The notes under the pieces are model-generated. The model saw only the letters and a program-made list of their open reading frames with translations. It had not been told where the DNA came from and made no database searches. From positions 62,001 to 126,000 of IMG/VR virus record IMGVR_UViG_3300042455_001086: 64,000 nt of DNA; one strand, given 5' to 3'. Positions 11,913-38,498 of this stretch are shown here, one piece after another; position 1 is the first letter of the stretch; each line of letters starts with the position of its first letter. Position numbers and translations under genes: made by a program. The DNA comes from a virus.

Positions 11913-11917
11913 AAAAT

Positions 11918-21915: not shown

Positions 21916-22371
21916 TTAATCTCTATATATTCCCAATACTGGGATTTTAGTTAATCCTTTTCTAGTATAGGAGTGGAATCTGTGCCAACCATCTATAATT
22001 AGTTCTTCATCATCAAAATCAATTATGATTGGTAATACTGAATCTCCGTGGTCTGTTTGTTCATCTCCATACCATTTATGATAATTCTCAAAACTATCCC
22101 ATTCTAATCGTTCTGTAACCTCATCTTTTATTAACTTAATTGGGACAACTCCATAGTAAAACATTTTTCTTTTAAAAGAAGTTTGTAACTCGTCATCAAT
22201 TAAATCTTTAATCTCCATATCATTTGTAGTTCCTTCATTTCTAAATATCATTAATGATTTTTGATATGGATATGGTAATTTATAAAATGGTGATACATCT
22301 AAATAATGACTAATATCTTTTGATTCCAGTTCTTCCCTTAATATTCTTCTTATGGATTCTTGTAGGTTCAT
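21916..22371 (-). CDS. Type D tagged ParB/sulfiredoxin-like protein
   Basis: 151 residues. After the MNLQESIRRILREELES tag, residues 45-130 lead to ELIIDGWHRFHSYTRKGL, matching the DGxHR box of ParB/sulfiredoxin-fold proteins, where it binds nucleotide. Some relatives are DNA-binding or nuclease domains. The protein is thus likely a packaged enzyme or DNA binder with ParB/Srx fold. Its start overlaps the stop of 22368-22691. Confidence 0.65.
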   Translation of the reverse strand: MNLQESIRRILREELESKDISHYLDVSPFYKLPYPYQKSLMIFRNEGTTNDMEIKDLIDDELQTSFKRKMFYYGVVPIKLIKDEVTERLEWDSFENYHKWYGDEQTDHGDSVLPIIIDFDDEELIIDGWHRFHSYTRKGLTKIPVLGIYRD

Positions 22372-22691
22372 AATCTTTCTTTGTAGTGGTTGTATAATGA
22401 TTTAATTTTGTCATCAAACAAATCTGATACATCTGTTACAAAATCTATTTCTTCTTGTTGTGGTAGATCTTCCCAGCCCAATTCATACTCATTATACATA
22501 ATTGTTTCCACAGCTCTTAAAGTTAATTCATATTTGAATTGTCCGTAATTTTCCGTTTCATAATACACTTGTTCGGCATTACCTGGAAGTTTTCTTTTAA
22601 TATCGTCTAATTTAATTCTCCTGCGAAAGAATTTCGTTTCATTTAGTAATTCTTCCCTTAATATTCTTCTTATGTTTTCTTGTAGATTCAT
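22368..22691 (-). CDS. Type D tagged RR-family protein
   Basis: 107 residues: MNLQENIRRILREELLNE then KFFRRRIKLDDIKRKL and a helical domain with LTLRAVETIMYNEYE, which lines up with ARTAVETFFYMKYE of 16627-16917. The end is a basic Tyr-rich helix. TATTTAT lies five bases upstream. Confidence 0.7.
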   Translation of the reverse strand: MNLQENIRRILREELLNETKFFRRRIKLDDIKRKLPGNAEQVYYETENYGQFKYELTLRAVETIMYNEYELGWEDLPQQEEIDFVTDVSDLFDDKIKSLYNHYKERL

Positions 22692-22694
22692 TTA

Positions 22695-22764
22695 TAATAA
22701 ATATATTGTAATCTTTTTATCTAATCTATAATCTTTAGTAATTCTCTTACTTCTGGGTGTGATA
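22695..22764 (-). pseudogene. 70-base remnant of a gene 3' end plus leader
   Basis: Perfect repeat of 23408-23477. In leftward sense it still encodes SHPEVRELLKIID and a stop, the exact C-terminus of 23434-23943, and then a leader with TATTTAT. It is a leftover of a tandem duplication and now serves as the upstream region of 22368-22691. Confidence 0.8.
22697..22703 (-). promoter_or_regulatory. TATTTAT element
   Basis: 5 bases upstream of 22691. Confidence 0.6.
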
Positions 22765-22789
22765 TAATAATTTTCCATATGTTGGAATT

Positions 22790-23404
22790 TTAATCTAACA
22801 TTTGTGGTTTGTCAATTTCATCCATAGGTATTGTTGCCAAATATTCGTCTTCGAATCCTCTGGAAAGTTTTATCCCAATATTGTTATATGTTGGTTCATA
22901 ATTAGATTCTTCGTCTCTTAATTTTTGATTTAATTGATGTCTTAAAGTATCGGAACTTTTTTCACCAACAATCCCATCAATCTGATAGTTTGTTCTTAAT
23001 TTTGAATTAAACTCATCTATAATTTCCTGAATCTTTCTTTTAATTTTTGAGATTTCACTCTTCGTTACCGGCTCATCATTATATAATCTTATTATGTTAC
23101 CACCAATTCCATTAAAAATACCCCTTTCTTTTATGAACCTAGATAATGCCCCATTTAAGTTAATTTCACTAATTGGTGTAAATCTGTATTTAACCCCCAA
23201 TTCTTTTAGTCTACCGAAGTTTTCATACTCAATGTATGCGTATAGTGGTATAGTAATATATCGTAAGTCTGGTGATGAAAAATGACCATATTGTTTTATA
23301 ATTTTGGCGGCTTCAGATTTTCTAACATTAAGATTTTTATGGAAGTCCTCACCATTGGATAATTCTTCCCTTAATATTCTTCTTATGGATTCTTGTAGGT
23401 TCAT
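22790..23404 (-). CDS. Type D tagged protein
   Basis: 204 residues. Tag MNLQESIRRILREEL, then an alpha/beta body with LRYITIPLYAYIEYENFGRLKEL, and a long helix (residues 110-150, SKIKRKIQEIIDEFNSKL). No family recognised. Its 5' 40 bases are nearly identical to those of several neighbours. Confidence 0.7.
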   Translation of the reverse strand: MNLQESIRRILREELSNGEDFHKNLNVRKSEAAKIIKQYGHFSSPDLRYITIPLYAYIEYENFGRLKELGVKYRFTPISEINLNGALSRFIKERGIFNGIGGNIIRLYNDEPVTKSEISKIKRKIQEIIDEFNSKLRTNYQIDGIVGEKSSDTLRHQLNQKLRDEESNYEPTYNNIGIKLSRGFEDEYLATIPMDEIDKPQMLD

Positions 23405-23407
23405 ATG

Positions 23408-23477
23408 TAATAAATATATTGTAATCTTTTTATCTAATCTATAATCTTTAGTAATTCTCTTACTTCTGGGTGTGATA
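23408..23477 (-). repeat. 70-base direct repeat, source copy
   Basis: Intact copy of the 22695-22764 repeat: leader of 22790-23404 plus the 3' end of 23434-23943. Confidence 0.9.
23410..23416 (-). promoter_or_regulatory. TATTTAT element
   Basis: 5 bases upstream of 23404. Confidence 0.6.
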
Positions 23478-23943
23478 AGAATTTTTCTATATCATTTTTA
23501 ATTGTTCCGGTATTACAAAATTGATTGTTAAAGAAATGTTTTGGTATTTTATCATATTCATCGTGCCAAATATCTATTCTATAATCTTCTGGTAATTCAT
23601 TTAATTGTCTATCATACCAATCCTGGGCTCTTTCTTCTATTTCATCTTCTGTTGTGAATCCATTGGAGTCTAAATATAAATCGTCTATCTTTATGTAAGC
23701 GTGAATAAGATACGATTGTTCTACTTCTCCCTCGTCAAAATCATAAACCTCATCGGCCATTATTAAATAATATCTAATGTTTTTATTTGGGTATAGTTTT
23801 TTTAATCTACCAATAATATTATAAGCAAAATAATGACAATAACCGTGTTGGTAATCATATTTATTTCCGTGTTTATTTCCGGTGTTCCATTTTGATTCCA
23901 GTTCTTCCCTTAATATTCTTCTTATGGATTCTTGTAGGTTCAT
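23434..23943 (-). CDS. Type D tagged papain/transglutaminase-like protein
   Basis: 169 residues from the ATG at 23943, chosen because it begins the tag and has TATTTAT five bases upstream. After the tag, GYCHYFAYNIIGRL supplies a Cys at the start of a helix, IHAYIKIDDLYLDSNG supplies His followed by Asp on strands. This Cys-His-Asp order is that of papain-like or transglutaminase-like domains. A packaged cysteine protease or amidase is a reasonable but untested call. Confidence 0.6.
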   Translation of the reverse strand: MNLQESIRRILREELESKWNTGNKHGNKYDYQHGYCHYFAYNIIGRLKKLYPNKNIRYYLIMADEVYDFDEGEVEQSYLIHAYIKIDDLYLDSNGFTTEDEIEERAQDWYDRQLNELPEDYRIDIWHDEYDKIPKHFFNNQFCNTGTIKNDIEKFLSHPEVRELLKIID

Positions 23944-23948
23944 ATGTA

Positions 23949-23955
23949 ATAAATA
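23949..23955 (-). promoter_or_regulatory. TATTTAT element
   Basis: 5 bases upstream of 23943; decides that start. Confidence 0.6.
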
Positions 23956-23967
23956 CCTTATATATAC

Positions 23968-23993
23968 AAAAAACCCCACCTTTTGGGGTGGGA
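23968..23993 (-). terminator. Terminator
   Basis: Leftward sense: CCCACC stem with GGTGGG and six T, following 24003-24422. Confidence 0.8.
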
Positions 23994-24002
23994 ATTATCT
24001 GT

Positions 24003-24422
24003 TTAAATCGGTATAATCTCACATGGTTCTAATCTTATTTTCTTAACTTCACGATAGTTTGTGAGTGATTTTAATATATTAACCAAACTATCTGAAAGTT
24101 CTTTAAGGAATTTTTGATCTACAATATCATCTAATGTAATATAATCTATCTTATTTGTAAGTTCATAACCTCTATATTCTAACCATCTTTGTTTAACCCA
24201 GGTTTCATCTACATATATTTTACCATAGAATGAGATAATATCACTAATTTCAGAATATAAAACATCATATATTTCAATTTTTTTCCACCAGTCATATTTT
24301 TTAGTCATAGTTTTATTTAAAACCATTTCCATAGCCGAATAAGATAAACCGCTTTCTTCTTCCCTATTTATTTTGGCATACCACTCAGTTAATACTTTTC
24401 TTATGTTTTCTTGTAGGTTCAT
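24003..24422 (-). CDS. Type D tagged helical protein
   Basis: 139 residues from the ATG at 24422. Tag MNLQENIRKVLTEWY with LTE. The rest is predicted helical with several Trp and acid residues. TATTTAT is six bases upstream; a longer frame into the neighbouring gene is rejected. No family recognised. Confidence 0.7.
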   Translation of the reverse strand: MNLQENIRKVLTEWYAKINREEESGLSYSAMEMVLNKTMTKKYDWWKKIEIYDVLYSEISDIISFYGKIYVDETWVKQRWLEYRGYELTNKIDYITLDDIVDQKFLKELSDSLVNILKSLTNYREVKKIRLEPCEIIPI

Positions 24423-24428
24423 ATTATT

Positions 24429-24435
24429 ATAAATA
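24429..24435 (-). promoter_or_regulatory. TATTTAT element
   Basis: 6 bases upstream of 24422. Confidence 0.6.
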
Positions 24436-24444
24436 TGACCATAA

Positions 24445-24768
24445 TTAAATTCGGATATATCCAATTTTTGTTTTATATAATCTATATGTGTCTTTCATTT
24501 TGTCTTTATATCTATTTCTTATAAAATCACATAATTTTGAATGGATTATCTCCATTTCATCTATTTTATTAAAAAAAACATCCCAACTAGGCATTTTTAA
24601 ATGTTCTACCATAAAATAATTTGACATATCGTGTAATAATGCTTCTTTCCAACTACGATAATCATGTGATCTAACTAAATGTTGAGCACCATTAGAATTT
24701 AACCAGAAGTGGAAAACCTCATCAATAGTCTCAAGTCTTCTAATTATGAGTTTTTGGTATTTGTCCAT
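24445..24768 (-). CDS. RR-family helical protein without tag
   Basis: 107 residues from the ATG at 24768. It opens MDKYQKLIIRRLETIDEVF and continues as an acidic-basic helical domain of the recurrent RR type. TACATTTG ends three bases before the ATG, so it is host-type transcribed and probably leaderless, unlike its tagged relatives. Confidence 0.65.
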   Translation of the reverse strand: MDKYQKLIIRRLETIDEVFHFWLNSNGAQHLVRSHDYRSWKEALLHDMSNYFMVEHLKMPSWDVFFNKIDEMEIIHSKLCDFIRNRYKDKMKDTYRLYKTKIGYIRI

Positions 24769-24771
24769 AGA

Positions 24772-24779
24772 CAAATGTA
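24772..24779 (-). promoter_or_regulatory. TACATTTG promoter
   Basis: Ends 3 bases before 24768. Confidence 0.65.
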
Positions 24780-24796
24780 GTAATTAATTTTGAAAC

Positions 24797-25188
24797 CTAC
24801 CACTGTCTGTCTTTATCTGACATTGTATTGATAATATTATCTACTATTACATTAACTTTTGGGATAAATTTACGTAGATGCCATTGTAGTTCATAAACTA
24901 ATGGGTCTTCATCCACAAACCAATTGGAACTATATTCTATCTTGAGATATATGTTTAGAACATTTTTTTTTCAATATTTGTGATTCTAATTTTTGGTTCT
25001 AACTCAAGAAAATCGCAAACATCAAATGAAATGTGTTCATCATCTTCCGAATTCAGTTCTCTACAAGTTTTTAACATTAACTCTAATGTATCATCCAAAA
25101 GTTTCTGGAGTCTTTCTATTCTTCGACCGTGACCAGTTTTATTGATCTCTTCTTTTAATATTCTTTTTATGTTTTCTTGTAGGTTCAT
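24797..25188 (-). CDS. Type D tagged protein, frameshifted at an A9 run
   Basis: The ATG at 25188 opens MNLQENIKRILKEEINK. Frame 0 stops after about 77 residues, just past nine consecutive A in the coding strand (24963-24971). In the -1 frame coding continues for about 55 more residues (NVLNIYLKIEYSSNWFVDED ... SDKDRQW) to a TAG at 24797, filling the otherwise empty interval. It is either a sequence indel, a broken gene or a -1 slippery site. Confidence 0.6.
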
Positions 25189-25189
25189 A

Positions 25190-26128
25190 TTAATCTCCAC
25201 ATTGTATATGATAATGTTCTCTTAACTTATCACCAAATTTATTTTTGACATATCTTTCTATAAATCTATACATTTGTCCCCATTCGTCTGAATCATCATC
25301 TAATTTGTCGGCAAAATAATCCCAATACATTCCATCTCCTGTCTTTTCGATTACAATCTCCACAAAGTTTTCAGGGGTCCTAACATTACATATACCATTA
25401 TATTGTCTTTCTATTTCTCTTACAGAAAAATCAACCAACCAATCAACCGTGTCTATTCTTCTTTTAATTAAATTAACCGGATTTGATATTTCTTCCTTTA
25501 ATATCCTTCTTATTGATTCTTGTAGGTTCATTAAGTCACCTATATCCATATTTTTTATATCATCCGGTAATTCATTAAACTCTTTATCCTGTTTAGCTTT
25601 TAACTCCTCAGCTTCTTTCTCTTTTTTTATTCGTTCTTTTTCTTCAGGTGTCAAATCAATTTTTGGTTGTTTTCCCGTTTTTAGATAAATCTCTTTAGCT
25701 TTGTCCGCTTCTTCGTTTGATCCAATTAATTTAATTGCTGAAGGTGGTATTGGTTCAGTTGTTACATAAAAATACCATTCTGGCTCTGTTTTCTCGTGAA
25801 TAGGATCTTTATACCAATTATTATCAAGTTTTGTTAAATCTATTTCCCAAATGTCATTCCCATAAACACCAAAAAAGTTACCATGTTTTGGGTCTTGTGC
25901 AAATATTAAAGGAACCGGTTCCAGATTTAATTCATTGTTTGTAATAAAATTCTTTGTTCTTTCCCCAATTTTTGGTAATAAACCTCTTTTTAGAATACTA
26001 TCTCGATTCTTAGATGATGAATAATGATGTAATATAGATGGTGGATCTATTTTTGTTAAAATACTTTTAAGGGAAATTTTTTCTATTTCTTCCCTTAATA
26101 TTCTTCTTATGGATTCTTGTAGGTTCAT
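25190..26128 (-). CDS. Double-tag fusion: ADP-ribosyltransferase-like domain plus RR-family domain
   Basis: 312 residues with two complete type D tags. Residues 1-15 are the first tag. Residues 30-150 (HHYSSSKNRDSILKRGLLP, then LIFAQDP, YGNDIWEIDL and PPSAIKLI) resemble ADP-ribosyltransferase-fold domains such as RNA 2'-phosphotransferase relatives. Residues 165-195 are a charged coil. A second MNLQESIRRILKEEISN starts at residue 200 (ATG at 25531, preceded by AGGTGA) and leads into an RR-family domain. Two genes appear fused, or made as a polyprotein. T4 Alt is a packaged ADP-ribosyltransferase, a useful parallel. Confidence 0.65.
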   Translation of the reverse strand: MNLQESIRRILREEIEKISLKSILTKIDPPSILHHYSSSKNRDSILKRGLLPKIGERTKNFITNNELNLEPVPLIFAQDPKHGNFFGVYGNDIWEIDLTKLDNNWYKDPIHEKTEPEWYFYVTTEPIPPSAIKLIGSNEEADKAKEIYLKTGKQPKIDLTPEEKERIKKEKEAEELKAKQDKEFNELPDDIKNMDIGDLMNLQESIRRILKEEISNPVNLIKRRIDTVDWLVDFSVREIERQYNGICNVRTPENFVEIVIEKTGDGMYWDYFADKLDDDSDEWGQMYRFIERYVKNKFGDKLREHYHIQCGD

Positions 26129-26133
26129 ATGTT

Positions 26134-26140
26134 ATAAATA
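26134..26140 (-). promoter_or_regulatory. TATTTAT element
   Basis: 5 bases upstream of 26128. Confidence 0.6.
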
Positions 26141-26155
26141 GTTTATATATACAAA

Positions 26156-26179
26156 AAACCCCACTTTTATGTGAGGTTA
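26156..26179 (-). terminator. Terminator
   Basis: Imperfect stem AACCTCAC / GTGGGGTT followed in leftward sense by a T run, after 26186-26473. Confidence 0.65.
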
Positions 26180-26185
26180 ATAATT

Positions 26186-26473
26186 CTAAACCATATTATT
26201 GAAAAATTTCTCAAGTTCGTATCTATATTTACTTGATATGAATTTATATAGGTTATTAAAAATATTATGTGTTTCAGTTTCCCATAGGTTAAGTTCAAAA
26301 CTATATAAAATAACATTGTTTGTTGTTGTCACAACCACATGTCTTAACCAACGATCAAAATCAAGTTTCACAATTTTAATCAAATCTATCGTGATATTGT
26401 TATTTAAATGTTCATAAAAAATTTTATCAATGACTGCAACCCTTCTAATTAAGGCAAGTTCTAAATTATCCAT
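26186..26473 (-). CDS. RR-family helical protein without tag
   Basis: 95 residues from the ATG at 26473, opening MDNLELALIRRVAVIDKIF. The same helical pattern as the other RR-family members follows. TATCTTTG ends three bases before the ATG. Confidence 0.65.
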   Translation of the reverse strand: MDNLELALIRRVAVIDKIFYEHLNNNITIDLIKIVKLDFDRWLRHVVVTTTNNVILYSFELNLWETETHNIFNNLYKFISSKYRYELEKFFNNMV

Positions 26474-26476
26474 ATA

Positions 26477-26484
26477 CAAAGATA
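26477..26484 (-). promoter_or_regulatory. TATCTTTG promoter
   Basis: Ends 3 bases before 26473. Confidence 0.65.
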
Positions 26485-26533
26485 TAATTTAATTTTGGAT
26501 TGATCTATAATTGACTTCTGGTTCTGACCTATT

Positions 26534-26839
26534 TTAATTATTTTTTCCATTAATATTTTTCTTACCGAATATTAGTTTTAGAAAAAATCTTTCAATTTCA
26601 TATGGTTCTGAATATTTGTATATCTTATAACAAACATACACACCAAAACAAAGTCTTAGAACTGTTAGAATATTAAATGAAATAAAACCAATCGTTGTTA
26701 AAACAATATCTAAAACATCAATTAAAATAAAAATGGTAAATAAAATCTCGTGTTTAAGAATTTTACGATTCAACTCTTTGATTCTTTTTTGAGCCTCCTC
26801 TGATGTTAATTTTTCAAATTCATACAGATTCTCTAACAT
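26534..26839 (-). CDS. Two-pass membrane protein
   Basis: 101 residues. A helical N-terminus (residues 1-28) precedes two hydrophobic segments (about 30-50 and 55-75) and a basic tail. No tag and no family. A gap of 133 bases without a gene lies to its right (26840-26972). Confidence 0.6.
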   Translation of the reverse strand: MLENLYEFEKLTSEEAQKRIKELNRKILKHEILFTIFILIDVLDIVLTTIGFISFNILTVLRLCFGVYVCYKIYKYSEPYEIERFFLKLIFGKKNINGKNN

Positions 26840-26972
26840 AGTTTTATTGTTTTCTATAGATCAATTTTATTAACTCACCATTACCATCAACAATGTCAAA
26901 AAACCATAATATTTTGATTTTTTTGTTATAATTAACTAATTGTAGAACTATTAAATGTGATAATCAACATTA

Positions 26973-27467
26973 CTACAACCCCTCATCTTCTTTTTCTGTG
27001 AAGTATTGATTAAACTTTTGCAACATTAAATAAAATTGAAATAACTTATCAATTCTATCAAACTTATTTGACAACCAAGCTTCACCATTTCTATATTCTT
27101 CATTTCTGTCGTCAAAAACAATTGTTCTACCAATACCATCACCAAACAAACGATATAAGGCAAATGCGTTATTTTCCAACCTTCTTTTTAATTCGTCGTT
27201 TCTAATTACTATATAACCCAAAACACCAAGTTTGATGTGATCAATAAACTCTTTATCACAATCTCTTTTTGTTGTACACCACTTTGTTCCAGAACCATAT
27301 TTTTTTGATGCTTCGTGTGTTAATGGAATTGTCAATATAAAATCATCGTCTTTGTATAGCTCAATATATTCATCTTTGGAGACTTTAAATCTCTCATGCA
27401 ATATCGATGAAGAGATGTGATCACTTAAAAGTCTATTATATTGTGATTCTGTAAGAATGATTCGCAT
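26973..27467 (-). CDS. Type A tagged protein with GTKWCT motif
   Basis: 164 residues. MRIILTESQYNRLLSD is a type A tag (LTE at 5-7, LHE at about 23-25). The body contains KKYGSGTKWCTTKRDCD and later FALYRLFGDGIGRTIVFDDRN. I recall the GTKWC motif from other phage proteins of unknown function. The Cys may be catalytic. Confidence 0.65.
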   Translation of the reverse strand: MRIILTESQYNRLLSDHISSSILHERFKVSKDEYIELYKDDDFILTIPLTHEASKKYGSGTKWCTTKRDCDKEFIDHIKLGVLGYIVIRNDELKRRLENNAFALYRLFGDGIGRTIVFDDRNEEYRNGEAWLSNKFDRIDKLFQFYLMLQKFNQYFTEKEDEGL

Positions 27468-27471
27468 AACT

Positions 27472-27478
27472 ATAAATA
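27472..27478 (-). promoter_or_regulatory. TATTTAT element
   Basis: 4 bases upstream of 27467. Confidence 0.6.
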
Positions 27479-27488
27479 TGCTTTTATA

Positions 27489-27875
27489 TTAAAAATTTGG
27501 AATTTGATTATCCCTTTCTTTATCCCTTAAATAAACTTCTAAGGTTGATGTTCCACCAGAATAAATTCTATCAAATGAACTCTTAAAAAAAGCTTCTAGT
27601 TGTGGTTTAAATTTTTTTCTAATCTCGAACATCTGGTCTGTTTGTTCGTCGTTAAAAGGTTTTTTCATAACTGTTGTAATAACTAAAACTCTTTCATCCG
27701 AATTTAAAAATTTTACATTTCTTATATCAACCATAAAATCATAAAAGTTTTCTGGAAACTCAATATCTTTGGTTAAAAAATTAATCATCTTTTTTACAGC
27801 ATACTTTAATCTTTCCGATTCAGTATTTTCAATTTCTTCTTTTAATATTCTTTTTATATTTTGCCTTATATTCAT
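27489..27875 (-). CDS. Type D tagged protein
   Basis: 128 residues from the ATG at 27875 (TAATATG junction with the gene to its right). Tag MNIRQNIKRILKEEIEN. The body is alpha/beta with many Phe and Lys. No family recognised. Confidence 0.7.
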   Translation of the reverse strand: MNIRQNIKRILKEEIENTESERLKYAVKKMINFLTKDIEFPENFYDFMVDIRNVKFLNSDERVLVITTVMKKPFNDEQTDQMFEIRKKFKPQLEAFFKSSFDRIYSGGTSTLEVYLRDKERDNQIPNF

Positions 27876-27876
27876 A

Positions 27877-28521
27877 TTAATATTCAATATCTGTTAGTTC
27901 AAACCATAAATCTTCTATTTGGTCTTCATACATATATTCCAATAAATTCATTACGGAGTCATACATATCTGATTCTTCCATAAACCCATCAATCAATAAA
28001 CCGTGTATTCCATCCATCATATAATTTAAAAATCGTGTTTTAAAATCCGAATAAGTAACTCCTGGGTGACTATGCCCTTCACTATAATATTTATAATTTT
28101 CATAAAATTCATCTTCTAAATCTTCTTTTGATACTCTCCTAAAAAGAAAATTTGCAGCATCTTTTTTATCGTATTTTGCTTCACTAATAATTGGTTCATA
28201 TCCTTCGCACTTTAGATTATCATAATATTCCTGAATTGTGTTTGAGAAAATTTCTTCAAGACCTTTGTTAATTATATTAATTTCTTCTTCTTCGGTTGAT
28301 TCATCATCATTTAAAAAGTCATAATTTGCCATTATATTAAAAATAACATCAGACATATCATCTAAAATAACACGATAAAACATATTATATCCTTCTTCCA
28401 CACCATACTTTGTTTTATAGAAACAACCATTTTGGTCCAAAAAAACATTTTGTAAAGCGTATTTTAAATCCGATACTGATATTCGTCTTAAAATATATTG
28501 TATTTCTTTTGTCATATCCAT
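27877..28521 (-). CDS. Protein with two RR-family domains
   Basis: 214 residues. Two tandem helical units begin YILRRISVSDLKYALQ (residue 9) and FLFRRVSKEDLEDEFY (residue 120), each followed by acidic helices ending in Tyr-rich segments. This internal duplication of a domain found singly elsewhere supports the RR family as a real domain. No clear tag. Confidence 0.65.
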   Translation of the reverse strand: MDMTKEIQYILRRISVSDLKYALQNVFLDQNGCFYKTKYGVEEGYNMFYRVILDDMSDVIFNIMANYDFLNDDESTEEEEINIINKGLEEIFSNTIQEYYDNLKCEGYEPIISEAKYDKKDAANFLFRRVSKEDLEDEFYENYKYYSEGHSHPGVTYSDFKTRFLNYMMDGIHGLLIDGFMEESDMYDSVMNLLEYMYEDQIEDLWFELTDIEY

Positions 28522-28525
28522 AGAA

Positions 28526-29473
28526 TTAACTTGGTAATTTTTTACCTTTTAAATATGTTTTTTCGTTCTCAACTTTTATTTTAATTTTTGGTTCATATCC
28601 TTTTGGAAGTTTGTTTTCAATCCCTTTGAATTCCCCCATTTCATTATCCATCCTTACAGTAACTTCTTTCTTTTCTAAATTCATCATAATTTGTCCGACA
28701 GTTGTCATATTATACATATTTTTAGTTCTATATGGATTTAAAAATGGATCTTCGTCATATTTTTCTTTTAATCTATCAATAATCTCAATATCTGTTTTCA
28801 CATCTTCTAAATGTTTCTTGGCTAATTCCATTCGTGAGACAGATGATTTTCTTTTTTCACCCTTTGTATAACCAGCACCTTTTTGATAAATTCCGTGATT
28901 AGTCCTTACAACAAGTTTTGAGTCTTCTTTTAATTTTTTTATAACTGGTGCGTGTTTTCTTGTCATTTCAACAACATAGATATTTTTATTATCAGAAACT
29001 ATGGTTTCACCTTTTAATCCAACATCGTTTTTATCTTCACCGGTATAACTAATAATTGATTTTATGACTTTTGGTAGAGTTTTATAACTAAGAGCTTTTC
29101 TTATTTTTCCACCATCAGCAGCAAACTTTTTCTTTGATGTTTTATCTTTTATTTTATCAACTTGTCTTCTTTCTTTTTTAACACCCTTTCCTTCTTTTTC
29201 GTCTTCAACAACCAATAAACTTGAATTTACAATACCAATACCAAATTCATTCATTCCTTCACTCCAGTCTGTATCAATATCTCTCCAATATACAACCTCA
29301 ACATCATCAATTAATTCGTGTATAATTTCAACATTAGCTTTATATCCTCTGTCTCTATTCTTTGCTAAAACAATACCATCGTCAATTCTTACTCCGGCAA
29401 TCGTACATTCAACTAATGTTTTTAGTTCTATATGTTCTCTTAATATATTTTTGATTGAATCTTTTAAGTTCAT
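28526..29473 (-). CDS. Tagged Ntn-hydrolase-like protein (C45/choloylglycine hydrolase type)
   Basis: 315 residues. The type D tag MNLKDSIKNILREHIE is followed by LVE at residues 20-22 and then Cys23. From Cys23 onward the sequence (CTIAGVRIDDGIVLAKNRDRG, then WSEGMNEFGIGIVNSSLLV) resembles N-terminal nucleophile amidohydrolases, which need a free N-terminal Cys. Cleavage after LVE by a prohead protease would expose exactly this Cys. The C-terminal 130 residues are basic and novel. Substrate unknown; acyl-amide bonds are usual in the family. Confidence 0.7.
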   Translation of the reverse strand: MNLKDSIKNILREHIELKTLVECTIAGVRIDDGIVLAKNRDRGYKANVEIIHELIDDVEVVYWRDIDTDWSEGMNEFGIGIVNSSLLVVEDEKEGKGVKKERRQVDKIKDKTSKKKFAADGGKIRKALSYKTLPKVIKSIISYTGEDKNDVGLKGETIVSDNKNIYVVEMTRKHAPVIKKLKEDSKLVVRTNHGIYQKGAGYTKGEKRKSSVSRMELAKKHLEDVKTDIEIIDRLKEKYDEDPFLNPYRTKNMYNMTTVGQIMMNLEKKEVTVRMDNEMGEFKGIENKLPKGYEPKIKIKVENEKTYLKGKKLPS

Positions 29474-29477
29474 AAAA

Positions 29478-29484
29478 ATAAATA
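29478..29484 (-). promoter_or_regulatory. TATTTAT element
   Basis: 4 bases upstream of the Ntn-hydrolase-like start at 29473. Confidence 0.6.
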
Positions 29485-29496
29485 TCTAATTAAATC

Positions 29497-30645
29497 TTAT
29501 TTACCAAAAAGTTCAGCTTCTCGTTTTCTTCTAACTTCAAGACCTGGAAATTTTCCAAACATATGTGAGCTTTCTTTTTTTAATTGTTCTTGAGCCTTTT
29601 CCATTTGACCTCTTTTTACATATTGAATAAATTCACTCATTCTAAAATTTTTAATCCCCATATTGTATATCATTGAAATCATTGCGTTATACATATTTTG
29701 TGTTATATTTGGTGTTATTCCTTTTTTTTCCCAATCATTTAATATTTTATTTAACTGGTCTTTTGATTCTTCAACATCATCTCTTAAAAGAATTTCAGCT
29801 TGGTTTTTTGTGATTGTTGTTTTACCTGGAATAATTCTATGATATTTAGGTAAGAAATTATAATTTCCACCAACATCACCTCTATTTGGATTACTAAACA
29901 CAGCGTGTCCATAACCAATTGTTTTTGCACCATCACCGATGTCATAAGCGGTTAATATTGGTTCGCCTTTATTAACGACTGAACCTTCTTCATATTTTAG
30001 ATGATCAATTAATTTATCGTCATAATTACGAATTCGTTTTTTTGTTTCTTTTAAACCACCACCAATATTGATTGGTAGTTCTGTTTTTTCTGGTTCAACT
30101 TGTTTTGGTTCTGGTAATGATTGATAACCAATAACACCTATTAAAGAATATAAAGCATATTTTAAAATCTTTTTTCTTACATTATCGTCAAGATTTTTTA
30201 TCTTTTCTTTAAGTAATTCCAAATATTTTTTAGCTTCTTCTTTTGTTTTTACCCACAAAGTTGAAAGATCTATATTTTTTTTGACATCAGTAAAATCCCA
30301 CTCAAAATCTGGTTCCCTATCTTCATTTATAAGATTTATCGACTGAATAGCCAAATTGATGTATTCTGAACTTAATTTTAAATTTTCATTTAAGTCTCTT
30401 GTGTATTTTCTAAATCTATATGGTGAGTTTTTGACTGCTGACTTTGGAAATCTGGTTCCAATACCTTGTCTTCTGGCCATTTTAAGTGTTCTTGTATATT
30501 CTTCAAGTTCTTTTTTCTTTTTCCCATCACAATGTGCTCGTTGTGAAAAACCTTTTGGGTTATCACAGTCGATTGAATCCTTATATTCTTTGGACCATTT
30601 CTCTTCTAATTCTTCTTTTAATATTTTTCTAATTAATTGTTTCAC
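29497..30645 (-). CDS. Type D tagged GH24 phage lysozyme
   Basis: 382 residues. Residues 1-13 are the tag (MKQLIRKILKEEL). Residues 18-45 carry the Cys/His motif SIDCDNPKGFSQRAHCDG, common in phage structural proteins. A hydrophobic stretch lies near 160-176. Residues 215-382 are a T4-lysozyme (GH24) domain with LKYEEGSV (catalytic Glu), then Asp and KTIGYGHAVF (Thr), and the end NMGIKNFRMSEF. It cleaves peptidoglycan glycan chains. The tag suggests packaging rather than simple lysis. Confidence 0.85.
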   Translation of the reverse strand: MKQLIRKILKEELEEKWSKEYKDSIDCDNPKGFSQRAHCDGKKKKELEEYTRTLKMARRQGIGTRFPKSAVKNSPYRFRKYTRDLNENLKLSSEYINLAIQSINLINEDREPDFEWDFTDVKKNIDLSTLWVKTKEEAKKYLELLKEKIKNLDDNVRKKILKYALYSLIGVIGYQSLPEPKQVEPEKTELPINIGGGLKETKKRIRNYDDKLIDHLKYEEGSVVNKGEPILTAYDIGDGAKTIGYGHAVFSNPNRGDVGGNYNFLPKYHRIIPGKTTITKNQAEILLRDDVEESKDQLNKILNDWEKKGITPNITQNMYNAMISMIYNMGIKNFRMSEFIQYVKRGQMEKAQEQLKKESSHMFGKFPGLEVRRKREAELFGK

Positions 30646-30648
30646 TTA

Positions 30649-32073
30649 TTAACCCTTATCAATCTTATCTTGAAGAACTTTCACAAACTCGTTTTGAATC
30701 ATTTTCACAAACTTAATATATGGTGCATCCTCTTTTTCTGGATCATATTTATATTTTCCTCGTGGTGGTCTTGTTGATCTACCAAGGTAATTTAGCGAAC
30801 TTACATTAGAAATGCAAGAATGTCCCCCACTATTAGCTTGTATTAAATCCCACGCATTAATTGTAATTTCATCTAGCATTTTTTTCTCATCTTCATCCAA
30901 ATCACTAAATGGTTTTTCCATAATCTGATATATGCTTCTTATATATTCTTTGTTCCTTTGTGGTGATTTAAAATCATTACCATATGTTGCAACAAAATCT
31001 TTAAAAGTGAAACCAACAGATTCTGAACCAAATTCTTTACCACTTTCTGAAACCCACTTAATTGTTGATAATGGAATTTCTCTTGATTTTAATTGTCCTT
31101 CCCATTTTGATAATACCTCTTGTGCTATTTCACCAAGATTAATACCCTTTAATTCTCTTTCTTTTTTAAATGGATTACAAGAAACCTGAACCAAACCTAA
31201 TGGCCAAGCAATAACAATAAAGTCAGCTTCTGGATTGTTTTTAAATGGTGTATATCTGTCATATGAACCTGGTGCAAATGTGCTACCACCACCATATTGG
31301 ACGATTATTCTATCTTGAATTTTCACATTTGGATGTGATTTCATTTGTTGGATATAATCTTCTCTATTTTTTTGTAGTTGTGGTATTTTAGCATAGTTCT
31401 TCTCAACCATTATCCTTTTAATATTATTTAAAATACTCAACAATGATGGTTGTGATTTCATTACTAATTCTTCCAAGAAACCTGGTTTGTTTTTGAACGC
31501 CAATAATAACTTATTGGTTACCAGTCCCATCATAAACTTATTTCTTCTTGCTGATTGACTTTTATCCAATTTGAATAAATAATTAATAACCTCATCAACT
31601 GAAATATCTTTTGCAATATAATTTGCTGAATCGACCGTAGATATAAGTTCAATATCTTCCGGTGTGAATATTTCTTTTGGTGACACAATTTGTGATATTG
31701 TTTCAACATTTGATCTTGAATGTCTGAATGATGTTGCCGTGTCTTTTTCAACACCGGCTTGTCTGTCGTGATGATCGGTGTGAATTACGAACATCGGCTT
31801 GCCATTAGCGAAGTCAACTAAAACTGGCATAACATCACCATTAGCGTCTAATTTCTTAACCGCAAATTCTTTATCCCCATACTGGATTACTTCTGCATCA
31901 ACTACTTCAATTCCTTTTTGCTCAAGATAATGTTTCATTGCAAGAGCTGTCGTAACTCCGTCAAGTCAAAGGTCCTGGTGAAAGTAGATTTTCGCTTTCT
32001 TGTAGCGCTTTGCGATGTTATTAATATCGCGTAATCCACTTTCAACCAGGACATATCTATTTTTTCTGGTCAT
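30649..32073 (-). CDS. DHH-family phosphoesterase with in-frame UGA (putative translational hop)
   Basis: The ATG at 32073 opens a frame that reaches GAC CTT TGA CTT GAC at codons 34-38. Beyond the TGA the same frame continues for over 430 residues to 30649. Skipping the TGA by moving from the first CTT to the second gives HQDLDGVTTA, the canonical first DHH motif; readthrough instead would insert two residues in it. Residues further on show VIHTDHHDRQ (DHH motif) and, near the C-terminus, NSGGHSCISN, the DHHA1-type glycine/His motif. Family members hydrolyse nucleic acids or cyclic dinucleotides. An ATG at 31938 could give a truncated form lacking motif I. Confidence 0.75.
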
Positions 32074-32163
32074 AATTTATTTTTTTTCATATAAATACTT
32101 TATAAATCCAATTAATTAATCTAGTCCTATTGAATATTTCTATTATTTTTACTACACTTCATT

Positions 32164-32475
32164 ATGCTTTCACCAGAAACTTTTAAAAAAATAGGAATTT
32201 TTATCAAAAGGCACAGTAATAATAATATTCTTACGATTGATAATATCACTTATCAAGCTAAGACTGATGCGAATTACGATAATTTTTTTGATAATCTAAA
32301 TCTTGTTACCATTAAACATATATTGATTTTGGATTGTAGATGTAGAGACAATTCATATTTTAAAGGTTATGAAGAATTGGGTAAAATGATTCACCATATG
32401 TTTAAGTATGAATTAATTGGGATTGATGATGTTATTGTTAGATATAACTGTTCAACATATTTTTGTAAGGATTGA
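32164..32475 (+). CDS. Hypothetical protein
   Basis: 103 residues of alpha/beta character with five Cys, three in the last 20 residues. It is rightward between leftward genes and starts close to the divergent DHH start. Size and layout recall 8353-8634. No family recognised. Confidence 0.55.
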   Translation: MLSPETFKKIGIFIKRHSNNNILTIDNITYQAKTDANYDNFFDNLNLVTIKHILILDCRCRDNSYFKGYEELGKMIHHMFKYELIGIDDVIVRYNCSTYFCKD

Positions 32476-32480
32476 AGATA

Positions 32481-33479
32481 TTAAGCGACACTACTAACTA
32501 AATCAAACTTATCCGAATCACTTACAGCTTTTGATCTATGAAACCCAACAGCACCACCGGCATTTATATCAGCAAAATAAGTTGCGGAATCTTTTTTGTC
32601 TTTAAACTTAGGAAATGAATCACCTGACTTTCCTTTTGTTAAAAACACCACAGCAATTTCAGATGCCACATTTGGGTCATTAACTAAATCTGGATTACCA
32701 ACTAAATCTTTACCAATTAAATTACCATATTTTTCATAATTTCCTCTACCGGTCAATTGGTTGAGACCTCTTCCTCTATATTTCCAACCATCATCACCAC
32801 CTTGATTTCCAGCGGTTTTAGCATATACAACATTAAAGAATTTTTCAGGATCTTTTTTTAAGTTGGTTAATTCACTATCCGAATATTTTGCAACTCTGGA
32901 ACCAAAAATACTTTTAATTCTTGAATTTGATGTTCCGGCATATGATAGTTCTGATTTTGGTTTAAAACCCGATTCTTTTGAGATTACAGATAATATGCCA
33001 ATTTTTGCTAAAGGGTCTTTTATTCCAAATTTATTCATATGGTTAATAATTAAACCGATATTTCTTTTTTGTTCTCCGTCAAAACCACCAACTAATTTAA
33101 TATCACTATTTTTGGGTATTTGACTATCTTCTTGATCCGAACTAATACTATTTTCAAATAAAAACTTTTCTGTCAATTTCTTAATTGTTTCTAAGTCAAA
33201 ATAACCAGATTCTTCTAAATTATTTTCGGATTGGAAGTCTTTAATGGTTGATTGTGTGTTTTCGTCTAAAATCCCGTTTAACTCTATTTGTTTTTGTGTC
33301 ACAATTCTTAAAACAATTTGCATTATTCTAATCTCTTTGTTTGCACTATTTTTTGTAATCTCTTTGTTTTTACTAACCAAATCTTGATAGACCTTTATGA
33401 ATTTTTCAAATAGTTTTTTTCTATCATCATTTTCGTTGATGAGTTTTTTAAACTGGCTTTCAGTAATTACAATTTTCAT
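32481..33479 (-). CDS. Type A tagged GH19 chitinase/lysozyme-like enzyme
   Basis: 332 residues. Tag MKIVITESQFKKLINEN (ITE and INE). Residues 45-120 include a PG_binding_1-like helical part (GILDENTQSTIKDFQSENNL). From about 140 a GH19 domain follows: KESGFKPKSE (catalytic Glu region), then the signature WKYRGRGLNQLTGRGNYEKYG, and NDPNVASEIAVVFL. It degrades peptidoglycan or chitin-like glycans. Like the GH24 gene it carries a head-type tag. Confidence 0.85.
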   Translation of the reverse strand: MKIVITESQFKKLINENDDRKKLFEKFIKVYQDLVSKNKEITKNSANKEIRIMQIVLRIVTQKQIELNGILDENTQSTIKDFQSENNLEESGYFDLETIKKLTEKFLFENSISSDQEDSQIPKNSDIKLVGGFDGEQKRNIGLIINHMNKFGIKDPLAKIGILSVISKESGFKPKSELSYAGTSNSRIKSIFGSRVAKYSDSELTNLKKDPEKFFNVVYAKTAGNQGGDDGWKYRGRGLNQLTGRGNYEKYGNLIGKDLVGNPDLVNDPNVASEIAVVFLTKGKSGDSFPKFKDKKDSATYFADINAGGAVGFHRSKAVSDSDKFDLVSSVA

Positions 33480-34194: not shown

Positions 34195-35048
34195 AAATTA
34201 TTAAAATTACCTTTTTTTATTTTATTATCATTTAGGATAAAACATTTGTTATTAGTGTCTATTTTATAGTTTTTGTTTGGGAATGAAACATAATTACCAG
34301 TTTTAATATCAACTAACATAATATTACCAACAGATAATCCAAGATAATTTTTTGGCATCGGTGTGTTTAATATTAATTTTCCATCTTCTTCTGACATTCC
34401 GGTTAGTTCTTTAACTTGAAAACTTTTTCCATTAATCATAAGGTCAATTCCGTGATCTCTATCTTGTCTGGAACCTGGAGGAAAATACTTTATCTCGTAT
34501 TTGGAGTTTTTTAATTTATCAATAACATATTTTTCAGTAACACTACCCTTATTATAGGTATTCATATTGGTCCTAATTAATTCTTTTAAAACCGGACCAT
34601 CCTTTAGTAATCTTTCTTTATTATCGATTAACCAACTATAAAACTCTTTTGGTGTTTCTCCTTTATTTTCTTTTTTAAAAGTAGTTAATAATCTTTCTTT
34701 AACAAATTTGTGCCCACCAAAATAATTTAGAATTGACCAACTTGTTAGATCATTAAGTGGATATATATCAACAATTCCATATTTACTTTTATCTTCATTC
34801 CAATCTAAATTATCTTTATATATCTCATATAAAACTGTATTTAATAATTTAGCAAATCTTCTATCTCCTTGGATAAACTCAACATTTAAATTTTTTGAAT
34901 CATTATCTTCCGAATGTATAATATCGATATAACCTTTTAAATTTTCTTCATTTGTATTTTCACTAAAATCAATATCGATTTGACTTTCGGTCAAACCCAT
35001 AAGTTTCAAACTTCTTTTTATTTCGTTAATTATGATTTTATCCATCAT
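34191..35048 (-). CDS. PD-(D/E)XK nuclease-like protein with tag-like N-terminus
   Basis: 285 residues. The start IIINEIKRSLKLMGLTES is tag-like with INE and LTE. The C-terminal 120 residues hold TEKYVIDKLKNSKYEIKY, then RDHGIDLMINGKSFQVKEL: a Glu, a GID and a QVK arranged as in PD-(D/E)XK restriction-type nucleases. It may cut host or competitor DNA after injection. The middle region is not recognised. Confidence 0.6.
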   Translation of the reverse strand: MMDKIIINEIKRSLKLMGLTESQIDIDFSENTNEENLKGYIDIIHSEDNDSKNLNVEFIQGDRRFAKLLNTVLYEIYKDNLDWNEDKSKYGIVDIYPLNDLTSWSILNYFGGHKFVKERLLTTFKKENKGETPKEFYSWLIDNKERLLKDGPVLKELIRTNMNTYNKGSVTEKYVIDKLKNSKYEIKYFPPGSRQDRDHGIDLMINGKSFQVKELTGMSEEDGKLILNTPMPKNYLGLSVGNIMLVDIKTGNYVSFPNKNYKIDTNNKCFILNDNKIKKGNFNNL

Positions 35049-35722
35049 TCAAAATCTTCTTCTTTTAAAATTAGTGGCTCACCAATTTCTGTTACTTGTT
35101 CGACCCAGTTATGATATAAATATCCATTATTATCGGAGTCTAACTTCATTGTACCGAACCCACCAACACCTTCGTTCCAATCATCTGTTTCCAAAACTTC
35201 TGAAATCATAAAATAAATTTCCTGTTGGAAAGTTTTTATATTGTGTTCTTTATTATTGTAGGTAATTTTATAACTATCAAACTCATTTTGCATTCCATTA
35301 TAATCAATTATTAATTCATCAATTGACAAATCTTTCATAAATTCAAATAATGGTTGTGAATATCTAAGCTCTTCCCAACCAAACCTATGATTATCTTTTG
35401 TGTGTTTATACACATAATACTTTGGTGTTAAAAGAATTTCTCTTGTTTTCGGATTTATCGTAACATCAACCCAAAAAGAACCATCTTTTTTGTCGGTATT
35501 GTTATAAAGTTTTTGACCAAAATATGAGATTATTTTATGAATAAATTCATCAAATATATCAATGAGACTAAACCTAAATGTATGACGCGAAGTCCAAAAT
35601 GTTGGGTAATAGTCAATCTCATCACCAAACATATCAACATTCTTTCCAATAGAACCAATAGGATTTAAATAAGCCATTAACGCCTTGAATGTTCTTTTAT
35701 TTATAATTGTAGTATTACTCAC
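35045..35722 (-). CDS. Paralogous acidic protein, member 1 of 5
   Basis: 225 residues. A short N-terminal helix (FKALMAYLNPIGS) leads to a beta-rich, acidic domain; a GVGGFGTMKLDSDNNGYLYH segment near the end aligns with GGWEIxxGSxGTI of the next genes. It shows the weakest similarity in the family. No tag. Confidence 0.6.
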   Translation of the reverse strand: MSNTTIINKRTFKALMAYLNPIGSIGKNVDMFGDEIDYYPTFWTSRHTFRFSLIDIFDEFIHKIISYFGQKLYNNTDKKDGSFWVDVTINPKTREILLTPKYYVYKHTKDNHRFGWEELRYSQPLFEFMKDLSIDELIIDYNGMQNEFDSYKITYNNKEHNIKTFQQEIYFMISEVLETDDWNEGVGGFGTMKLDSDNNGYLYHNWVEQVTEIGEPLILKEEDFE

Positions 35723-36410
35723 TAAATGAATCTTGTGTTACTTTTATTTCTATTGGTCCCAAATCGCTTTCCTCTACATTCCAATAATGATCGTGATTAA
35801 TCCGATCTTTAGTAATAGTAAAACTACCTTGAGATCCTTCATTTATTTCCCAACCACCATATTCACTTAATAAATTATAACAAATATTTTCAATCTCATT
35901 TGGAACATCGCCGCTTTGACCATTTTTAGTTGTATACTCACTATTAATGAACCCGCTATCTCCACCGCCCTCATAACTAACAATCATATCATCTATATTA
36001 AGTTCGGTCAATATTTTATCTATTTCTAAAAATTTTTCATACATAGAATCACCTTCTTCATAGTCATCTTTATCGTGGTAGTTTCCACTTTCTTGAGTAT
36101 CATAATAGCGATATTCAAGGTCTTCAAAAATTATTGTTTCATTTACGACATCTATCAGACCGTAAATTCTATAATAACTAGACATACCGTCAACATCAAC
36201 ACTACTTAACCCTTCATCAACACACTTTTCAGCATAAATATTTATTATATCTTGAATTATGTCTTCAATAACTTCAGCGACACTCAATAATTCAGTGTGA
36301 ATAATAACACTACCAACATAACCATCTTCACCGACTTCAACTTCAAAAGCCACATCTTTTAATTTGGCACTTTTAAAATAAGTCATTATTAATTTAAATT
36401 TCTTTTTCAT
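35715..36410 (-). CDS. Paralogous acidic protein, member 2 of 5
   Basis: 231 residues from the ATG at 36410. N-terminal MKKKFKLIMTYFKSAK helix, central acidic beta domain, and YGGWEINEGSQGSFTI near the end, followed by an HDHYWNVE strand. Overlaps both neighbours at start and stop. Confidence 0.6.
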   Translation of the reverse strand: MKKKFKLIMTYFKSAKLKDVAFEVEVGEDGYVGSVIIHTELLSVAEVIEDIIQDIINIYAEKCVDEGLSSVDVDGMSSYYRIYGLIDVVNETIIFEDLEYRYYDTQESGNYHDKDDYEEGDSMYEKFLEIDKILTELNIDDMIVSYEGGGDSGFINSEYTTKNGQSGDVPNEIENICYNLLSEYGGWEINEGSQGSFTITKDRINHDHYWNVEESDLGPIEIKVTQDSFSE

Positions 36411-36411
36411 C

Positions 36412-37110
36412 CTATTTAAAATCTTCAATATTATCCAAAGTAATTTCCAAATTCATTCCAGAATCTTCATATTCTTCTTTTTTTATATTACCCATCACTA
36501 TTATATCATCACCCCAAATTCTACAACTTAATTCGGCACCAGGACCATCATTCCAATATCTATCTCCTGTTATTGTCACCATCAAACCATATCCTATATC
36601 CCATAATCTTTGATCAAGTTCTTCTGTTATTTTTTTTCTACGATTATCAACTTCAAAATCAAACGAGTCACCCTCACCAAATCTTCCATTGATTCCAAAA
36701 TCAAAATATGCGGTATCTGGATACTCACTGTATAAATAATCAATTCCATATTGAACTTCTCTTTTCATACCGACATACTGAAATTCTCTTGAGAATGATT
36801 CACTTTTTTCTACTTTATGAGTTCCTTGAAAAACTAATCTATTTTCCTGTGGAAAAATATCAATATATAAAAACCAATAATCGTCATTATCTAACACAAT
36901 ATATTTTCTAAATTCATAATAAAAATGATCAATTAGTTCTTCCAATATTGTTTCAATAAATGACGGAATTTCAATATTTATATTTCCATCTATTAAAAAT
37001 TTACGGTCCCAATGTTCAATATAGTTTCGATCAAGTTCAACACGAGTTTGGACTATTTTACTTCTCAAGCCTCTTAAAAACCCAAATAATATTTTTAGTT
37101 TGTCTTTCAT
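36412..37110 (-). CDS. Paralogous acidic protein, member 3 of 5
   Basis: 232 residues with N-terminal LKILFGFLRGLRSK, shared with member 4. The rest is beta-rich and acidic; a DGPGAELSCRI segment occupies the place of the GS-rich motif of others. Confidence 0.6.
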   Translation of the reverse strand: MKDKLKILFGFLRGLRSKIVQTRVELDRNYIEHWDRKFLIDGNINIEIPSFIETILEELIDHFYYEFRKYIVLDNDDYWFLYIDIFPQENRLVFQGTHKVEKSESFSREFQYVGMKREVQYGIDYLYSEYPDTAYFDFGINGRFGEGDSFDFEVDNRRKKITEELDQRLWDIGYGLMVTITGDRYWNDGPGAELSCRIWGDDIIVMGNIKKEEYEDSGMNLEITLDNIEDFK

Positions 37111-37113
37111 TAT

Positions 37114-37827
37114 TTAAAAATCATCTAGTGTTATGATTATATTCATATCTGTCATATCATAATCTTCACTTCTAACATTGAAATCCAGTTGAATTGAGTT
37201 ATTTCTTTGAATTGTGATCTTTCCGGCAGCTCCTCTTTCATCTTTCCAAAAGCTATCAACTCTTTCTTTCATTATTTTATCCAAAAGTATTGCCCACGGT
37301 TCAAGTCTTAAAGTAACCGGTGTATCGTCTTCTTCAAAATCTTTAATATCTAAACCACGCCATTCCGCATCAAACTCATATGCTACTGTTTCTGTTTCTT
37401 TCCATAAATCACCATTTTCAAATGTCATATTTATTGCATCCAAAGTCTCTTGTGATAATTTATTTTCAGTTGGGAGACCAGGAGTTGTTAAATCAATATT
37501 ATATTTGTATGAATTTTCATATAAATATTTACATTCACTTTTAAATTTTATTTTATTTTTCCAAGGATAAATTGTAATATACAATGTCCAAAAATCATCT
37601 TCATCATAATTATTAAAACGATGAAATTTTCTCATCATACTTGATATAACTTCTTCCAAAATTTCTTCAATTATTTTTGGTGATTTAAAACCTTTACCTT
37701 TTTTGGTTGTAAAAATATGATCCCATTGTTCAAGACCATCATATATATAATTCATATATGTTGTAATCTCTTCTGTTTTAAGGCCTCTAAAAAACCCAAA
37801 TAATATTTTTAATTTTTCTTCCATCAA
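37114..37827 (-). CDS. Paralogous acidic protein, member 4 of 5
   Basis: 237 residues with N-terminal LKILFGFFRGLKTEE, nearly the same as member 3, and an RGAAGKITIQRN motif near the end. The N-terminal helix may serve as a common docking or targeting element, different from the four tag types. Confidence 0.6.
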   Translation of the reverse strand: MMEEKLKILFGFFRGLKTEEITTYMNYIYDGLEQWDHIFTTKKGKGFKSPKIIEEILEEVISSMMRKFHRFNNYDEDDFWTLYITIYPWKNKIKFKSECKYLYENSYKYNIDLTTPGLPTENKLSQETLDAINMTFENGDLWKETETVAYEFDAEWRGLDIKDFEEDDTPVTLRLEPWAILLDKIMKERVDSFWKDERGAAGKITIQRNNSIQLDFNVRSEDYDMTDMNIIITLDDF

Positions 37828-38498
37828 TCTTCAAACATATCAACAGTTAATTCAAATTTTTCATCACACCAATTCATTTCTCTCATAATCCATTCGTGTG
37901 AAATTACAATTTCCAAATTGTTATTTAATTCAATTGTTCCAGTGGAACCATCATCAATTTCCCAACCACCATAGGCATTTTCTAAATTATCGTAAAGTGT
38001 ATTCCAAATTAATTCATTGTCAGGTTCTCTGGATCCCCATTGGATATTTGTATCTTCACCATCAATTGTTATTGAGTTAATATCTCCATCATCCCCACCT
38101 CCACTATATCTTGCTTCAATTATTTCAACTCCAGTTCTTTTAAAATATTCTTCAAGTTTTGGATTTTCTAATTTTCTTTCATAAGTTTCAGCTTGATTTA
38201 TATATTCTTCATATTTTAACTCAATATACATTGAGTTTGTTTTTGGTTCCACAAATAAATAAACACTGTAATAGTCTGTCTCACTATAACAATTATCAAA
38301 TAATTCACTATTTATTTCGTTATAATAATATTCTACAACATCAGTAGCAAAATCAAATATCATTTCTGGTAATCCTGAAATATTTGAGCTAGCCCCCCAT
38401 TCATATTCAATATTCTCATTAGGAGCATTCCAAACAAACTGAACTGTTTTATTAAGTGGTTTTAAAAATTTTAAAAGTGCTAAAAATTTCTTTTTCAT
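37824..38498 (-). CDS. Paralogous acidic protein, member 5 of 5
   Basis: 224 residues with N-terminal FLALLKFLKPLNK and YGGWEIDDGSTGTIEL near the end, aligning with member 2. TATTTAT lies four bases before its ATG; the other members overlap or nearly abut, so all five are likely one late operon. Confidence 0.6.
   Translation of the reverse strand: MKKKFLALLKFLKPLNKTVQFVWNAPNENIEYEWGASSNISGLPEMIFDFATDVVEYYYNEINSELFDNCYSETDYYSVYLFVEPKTNSMYIELKYEEYINQAETYERKLENPKLEEYFKRTGVEIIEARYSGGGDDGDINSITIDGEDTNIQWGSREPDNELIWNTLYDNLENAYGGWEIDDGSTGTIELNNNLEIVISHEWIMREMNWCDEKFELTVDMFED

Follow-up and report, generated by a model that had tools for sequence, protein, structure and literature searches.

Ntn zymogens and head-packaged phage enzymes trimmed by gp21, such as T4 Alt, are both already known; what would be new in the system described here, within the open-access literature searched, is their combination. 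AAT/isopenicillin N acyltransferase (PF03417, MEROPS C45) shares with the phage protein the Ntn alpha-beta-beta-alpha fold and an N-terminal Cys nucleophile hidden in a precursor, but the fungal enzyme cleaves itself, whereas the junction in the phage protein bears the site of a separate phage protease. The choloylglycine hydrolases (BSH/PVA, MEROPS C59) belong to the same fold class and show a similar spacing of Cys, Arg, Asp, Asn and Arg, their active-site set being Cys2/Arg18/Asp21/Asn175/Arg228 (PMC8066178). Unlike the phage protein, they have neither a targeting tag nor a prohead site, and their arrangement is resembled by those phage members that begin Met-Cys.

The proteases of T4 (gp21), phiKZ and SPN3US cut after Glu inside a three-residue motif (PMC5694885). 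The motif of T4 gp21 is [LI]xE. T4 Alt, an ADP-ribosyltransferase, is a head-internal, host-delivered enzyme with a short N-terminal propeptide cut by gp21 at [LI]xE (ITE-6), and a further cleavage site at LTE-619 has been described (PMC5694885). Alt is not an Ntn enzyme, however, and whether its propeptides control activity has been called an open question (PMC5694885), whereas in the phage family considered here the chemistry would make the cut obligatory. The T4 internal proteins IPI-IPIII likewise carry a short N-terminal targeting peptide that ends in an S77 site and is common to unrelated cargo, but they are small proteins without known enzyme activity, and their cleavage is not an activation step. 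In IPIII, an aspartate at the position analogous to residue 22 of the phage protein prevents processing (PMC9026906).

A predicted Cys Ntn-hydrolase precursor in a jumbo phage

The window, i.e. the whole stretch of DNA analysed (64,000 nucleotides), spans positions 62001-126000 of a virus record, 257,166 bases long, from a jumbo bacteriophage. The gene of interest (28526..29473, minus strand, as are all features of the gene given below) is an ORF of 315 aa with an ATG start. Its product begins with the 22 residues MNLKDSIKNILREHIELKTLVE, followed by CTIAGV…. Residues 20-22 are LVE (29408..29416), identified from a cluster survey of pre-Cys residues as the predicted prohead-protease site abutting the catalytic Cys, and residue 23 is Cys (29405..29407), the predicted N-terminal nucleophile once cut, which is invariant in the alignment and the first residue of the predicted core; CTIAGVRIDDGIVLAKNRD and WSEGMNEFGIGIV lie downstream of it. 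The propeptide (residues 1-22; 29408..29473) appears to consist of a capsid-targeting-like helix and a linker, as judged from the AlphaFold2 (AF2) model and from a tag common to other ORFs. Another candidate prohead-protease site, the first in the precursor, was read off the sequence at residues 11-13 (LRE↓H; 29435..29443; ↓ marks a known or candidate cut), and [LI]xE stands at the equivalent position in most tagged proteins. An internal start at the Cys was rejected, a start codon next to Cys23 being absent.

The AF2 model, built from an alignment of 40 sequences (pLDDT 85.6, pTM 0.85), comprises a helix at residues 3-15, a low-confidence stretch at residues 11-20 and a core that opens with a strand at residues 24-30. 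When the PDB was searched with Foldseek, the top match was 2x1c, the acyl-CoA:isopenicillin N acyltransferase (IAT) precursor (E=1e-9, 14% structural-alignment identity), and all 36 matches at E<=1e-3 were Ntn-fold proteins or their relatives, including IAT, CV2077, BSH, PVA, NAAA, acid ceramidase, proteasome and MTH1020. The Ntn relationship was recognised by fold search alone, since sequence searches of the PDB, profile included, gave no Ntn match and PHROGs gave only weak matches. With Pfam, AAT PF03417 was matched at E=4.7e-5 (23.6 bits against a cut-off of 23.2, profile positions 106-222 only) and by 23 of 40 relatives at E<=0.01; because the profile match is marginal, membership of C45 remains tentative. 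For the choloylglycine hydrolase family (CBAH, C59), the window protein had no match at E<=1.

Cys23, N39-R40-D41, N192 and R249 are invariant in the family alignment. N39-R40-D41 (NRD motif; 29351..29359) provides the candidate catalytic Arg/Asp, with a spacing near that of Arg18/Asp21 of choloylglycine hydrolases; N192 (RTNH motif; 28898..28900) is at mature position 170 and is a candidate oxyanion-hole Asn (cf. Asn175); R249 (28727..28729), at mature position 227, is a candidate catalytic Arg (cf. Arg228). By modelled fold and active-site pattern the window protein is an Ntn hydrolase, its activity being inferred. A sequence-only reading of the locus had placed LVE and Cys at these positions, with CTIAGVRIDDGIVLAKNRD and WSEGMNEFGIGIV following, which held when read from the ORF, and had proposed a C45/choloylglycine-type Ntn enzyme, which held for the fold and only marginally (C45) or not at all (CBAH) for the named families; the fold prediction by AF2 and Foldseek did not return the non-Ntn fold that would have refuted it. 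From the fold, the substrate can be guessed to be an amide, for instance an N-acyl amino compound. Scans of genome contigs for cellular relatives of the enzyme found none; cellular homologues were thus unavailable for rooting the family or for a comparison of the residues ahead of their Cys.

Residues before the catalytic Cys, the head protease and the capsid site

Relatives were gathered by IMG/VR scans, together with two cultured phages, giving 317 viral loci that represent 149 distinct mature sequences and 106 clusters at 95% identity. A C-terminal alignment proved too divergent to serve as a scan query, and scanning with L069 or P0001 alone brought no useful additions. The catalytic Cys is preceded by [LI]xE in 95 of the 106 clusters, by [VMF]xE in 4 and by the ATG start Met in 7, and no third state was found among these clusters (317 loci). 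All propeptide-bearing clusters (99/99) thus combine Glu at -1 with a hydrophobic -3 residue; a lineage with a propeptide but without the protease motif was not found among the 106 clusters. By comparison, among the proteins of the window's genome [LI]xE stands ahead of 1.5% of residues and 1.6% of Cys. The juxtaposition of LVE and Cys23 is therefore more than a chance one.

Relative entropy was 3.84 bits at -1, 2.62 at -3 and 1.58 at -2, and below 0.9 farther out. The -1 and -3 positions are fixed, whereas -2 and -4 are loose. Because composition from -4 upstream is near background while -1 and -3 exceed -2, homology alone does not explain the conservation; the pre-Cys constraint has the form of the T4 gp21 rule. 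The propeptides themselves differ widely, being about 4-8 aa long (MAKLLNE, MKKLINE; the shortest apparently only MIKE↓C or MINE↓C), or of two unrelated tag types (a helical type, MKNLIRSILNEE…, and another, MKDNKFILLTESQ…), or domains of about 95-341 aa (a domain of ~95 aa; an upstream reading frame of 341 residues that weakly matches DUF5872), and all end in the [hydrophobic]xE motif. That the Cys is the N-terminal nucleophile of the mature protein is inferred, with indirect support from this E↓C or Met-Cys dichotomy.

The protease expected to read such a motif is encoded in the same genome. Peptidase_S77 (T4-type prohead protease) was found at genome positions 11778-12563 (E=2.1e-23), together with a gp22-like acidic protein (genome 9911-11410) and a gp23-type major capsid protein (MCP; genome 7990-9828), which has LINE↓A at the expected gp23 maturation site. 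When this MCP and 15 from other genomes were aligned, all 16 had [LIVM]xE↓[ASVG] in one column, at the expected position of the gp23 site (e.g. LINE↓A, LLNE↓S, LVSE↓A, LLDE↓A, LVTE↓V, LMNE↓V, LLKE↓G, LISE↓A). Of 24 large contigs with the enzyme gene, 19 were found to have S77; it was not found in the remaining 5, which may be fragments. By eye, no covariation between -3 of the MCP and -3 of the enzyme was seen, some MCPs having V where their enzymes have I/L.

Both cultured phages carry the enzyme gene, with FLNE↓C in MA9V-1 and FINE↓C in MA9V-2, and FINE↓A and FLNE↓S both occur in ORF152 of MA9V-1, a candidate capsid protein adjoining the protease gene. The MA9V-1 paper reports SDS-PAGE (PMC10537231). 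As a separate observation, the annotated prohead core protease of MA9V-1 (L281 6502-10545; OR050627.1) is a 1347-aa ORF with an S77 match only near its start and a large unexplained extension.

In a tree of 86 sequences (mature part only, not rooted with cellular homologues), the seven Met-Cys rows sit within a clade otherwise composed of E↓C rows, implying at least 3 changes. Since Met directly precedes Cys, these members never need a cut, and they serve as a natural control, showing that the propeptide is not needed for folding of the enzyme. In two of the phages concerned (G019, G020), S77 is present and the capsid protein reads LLDE↓A, so that the protease rule is unchanged there. As Met-Cys occurs in seven clusters although at least two such phages have S77, the enzyme family can do without packaging. 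The simplest reading, which remains an inference, is that packaging was lost in these lineages and that the Cys is exposed by methionine removal.

Gene neighbourhood, tags and presumed head cargo

The gene order in one relative (L072) is S77 protease, three ORFs, enzyme, one ORF and gp22-like acidic scaffold; two of the three ORFs begin alike with MK(K/T)QNSYLIMEG. S77 lies within 3 kb of the enzyme in two other lineages (L045/L129 and L131). In another genome (G015), N-termini encoded in the head operon read MSKYLLKE↓, MKMMSLLKE↓, MKKLSQLLKE↓, MAKSDLLKE↓ (scaffold) and MKVNNILAE↓ (MCP), and the enzyme of the same genome starts with the matching MKKLINE↓C. The MNLQESIRRILREE-type tag recurs on about 10 other ORFs of the window's genome, mostly beside the enzyme gene, including most of a run of ORFs at 21916..27887 (minus strand) which, from the ORF list and tag survey, are presumed to encode head cargo. 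The next gene upstream of the enzyme (29497..30645, minus strand) encodes a GH24 lysozyme of 382 aa (PF00959, E=2.8e-19), which is tagged in a similar way (MKQLIRKILKEELEE). The N-terminal peptides that the enzyme shares with head proteins (G015) or with other ORFs (the window's genome) are regarded as capsid-targeting, this function being inferred.

Several further observations concern these tags. The wider cassette at window positions 21916-33479, which includes the GH24 lysozyme and a GH19/PG-binding enzyme and is presumed to encode head cargo, consists of ORFs whose N-terminal tag is of either the MNLQESIRRILREE... or the M[KR]I[IV][IL]TESQ... type. One ORF (window 25190-26128) carries two copies of the tag MNLQESIRRIL[RK]EE, one at the N-terminus and one midway, which gives it the appearance of a fusion between tagged proteins; its first half has an ADP-ribosyltransferase-like look (HHYSS...), with no Pfam match. 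A further tag family, MKK(I)IRLTESDLxRIVxR(V/I)IxE, occurs on unrelated ORFs at genome positions 53092, 59307, 80362, 116717, 117095 and 142962, and, added to the other tags, brings the suggested number of packaged proteins to some tens. Two adjacent head-operon ORFs of L072 (2064-2983) have the common N-terminus MK(K/T)QNSYLIMEGSANPKNL, which is possibly another targeting sequence, with an IME↓G site. Elsewhere, about 5 tandem, apparently paralogous ORFs of 224-237 aa lie at window positions 35045-38498, and a 1340-aa ORF at the portal (gp20) position of L084 (14400-18422) apparently contains two intein-like insertions (CIAGDTKIATTDGFITIKELA..., NTPIRENTMIPLLDGTEVSIKELS...).

The octamer ATATTTAT (29478..29485, minus strand), whose first base is 12 nt 5' of the enzyme start codon, also stands 12-49 nt upstream of the MCP, the scaffold and several tagged ORFs. 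Across the whole genome, 75 of its 147 sites fall within 70 nt upstream of an ORF start, including those of the MCP and scaffold genes; the corresponding counts for rearranged octamers used as controls were 46/113, 27/126 and 13/61. The evidence is weak, and ATATTTAT can be put forward only as a possible late promoter, lending slight support to late expression of the enzyme.

Proposed activation by the prohead protease and rival explanations

The Ntn fold, a motif locked to the Cys, a protease and capsid site in the same genomes and the absence of a third pre-Cys state are established by the comparisons above. They are probably best explained by a capsid-targeted zymogen for which the prohead protease is the activator in trans; cleavage, packaging, activity, delivery and substrate are all inferred. 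The gene would encode an AAT/C45-like cysteine Ntn amidohydrolase that is synthesised in inactive precursor form, and the N-terminal tag (residues 1 to about 15) would carry this precursor into the prohead core, as the T4 capsid-targeting sequence does. The activated S77 prohead protease (the gp21 homologue) would then cut after L-V-E22, as it would the MCP after L-I-N-E, and perhaps also after LRE13. The cut would free the alpha-amino group of Cys23 as the nucleophile and complete the active site, and the active enzyme would be ejected with the DNA into the next host. The enzyme would therefore be switched on in maturing heads alone. The sequence-only proposal that removal of the tag at LVE yields an N-terminal Cys, head maturation doubling as zymogen activation, is thus supported, with cleavage, packaging and activity inferred; for its further claim that the enzyme is silent until packaged, silence of the precursor is an inference only.

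The main rival is that the protein is packaged and tagged but removes its propeptide autocatalytically, the prohead protease cutting at most at LRE↓H. Autocatalytic activation is the norm in this superfamily: according to a 2009 paper, it applied to every functional Ntn hydrolase known at the time (PMC2739207), and the closest structural match, IAT 2x1c, is autoprocessed. The propeptides of glutamine PRPP amidotransferase also end in Glu ahead of Cys, which favours autocatalysis. However, autocatalysis needs no hydrophobic residue at -3 with -2 and -4 free, whereas the fixed pattern observed is that of the MCP site; the shortest propeptides comprise little beyond Met and the motif; and the lineages without the motif simply begin Met-Cys. 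Autocatalysis is weakened to the point of being unlikely but is not excluded, and only biochemistry could exclude it.

It could also be held that [LI]xE reflects ordinary removal of a targeting peptide, the enzyme being non-catalytic or its activity independent of the cut, just as many of the head proteins trimmed by T4 gp21 possess no activity that a cut could turn on (PMC9026906). This is very unlikely: the predicted cut falls exactly at the catalytic Cys in every lineage, not at a variable distance, and the invariance of Cys, NRD, RTNH and Arg249 shows the active site to be under constraint. Equally improbable is a cytoplasmic protein whose tag is not head-targeting and which is cut by another protease, since, although the Met-Cys members look cytoplasmic and the tagged lysozyme and GH19 neighbours could suggest lysis over head, head proteins carry the same type of N-terminus (G015), the L072 enzyme gene lies inside the head operon and the motif is that of MCP maturation.

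Against the zymogen reading, Cys at P1' has been shown for no S77 protease, and the MCPs have the small residues A, S, V and G at this position. The 5 contigs in which S77 was not found and the seven Met-Cys clusters also count against it. The reading is further limited by the lack of virion proteomics, N-terminal sequence or activity data, and silence of the precursor is unproven. No described case of a prohead-protease-activated Ntn enzyme was found in the open-access literature searched, most subscription papers being outside its scope, and the sequence-only statement that no case is described agrees with this within that scope only.

A bolder form of the zymogen reading also appears likely, namely that a widespread phage Ntn family ceded its activation to the capsid-maturation protease, making head assembly an obligatory switch. 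As part of the same reading, and with the same degree of confidence, the active form would be confined to assembled particles and the next host, while some lineages would now be Met-Cys and active at once. If true, the enzyme would be an Ntn hydrolase that owes its activation to a dedicated viral protease acting in trans and not to itself.
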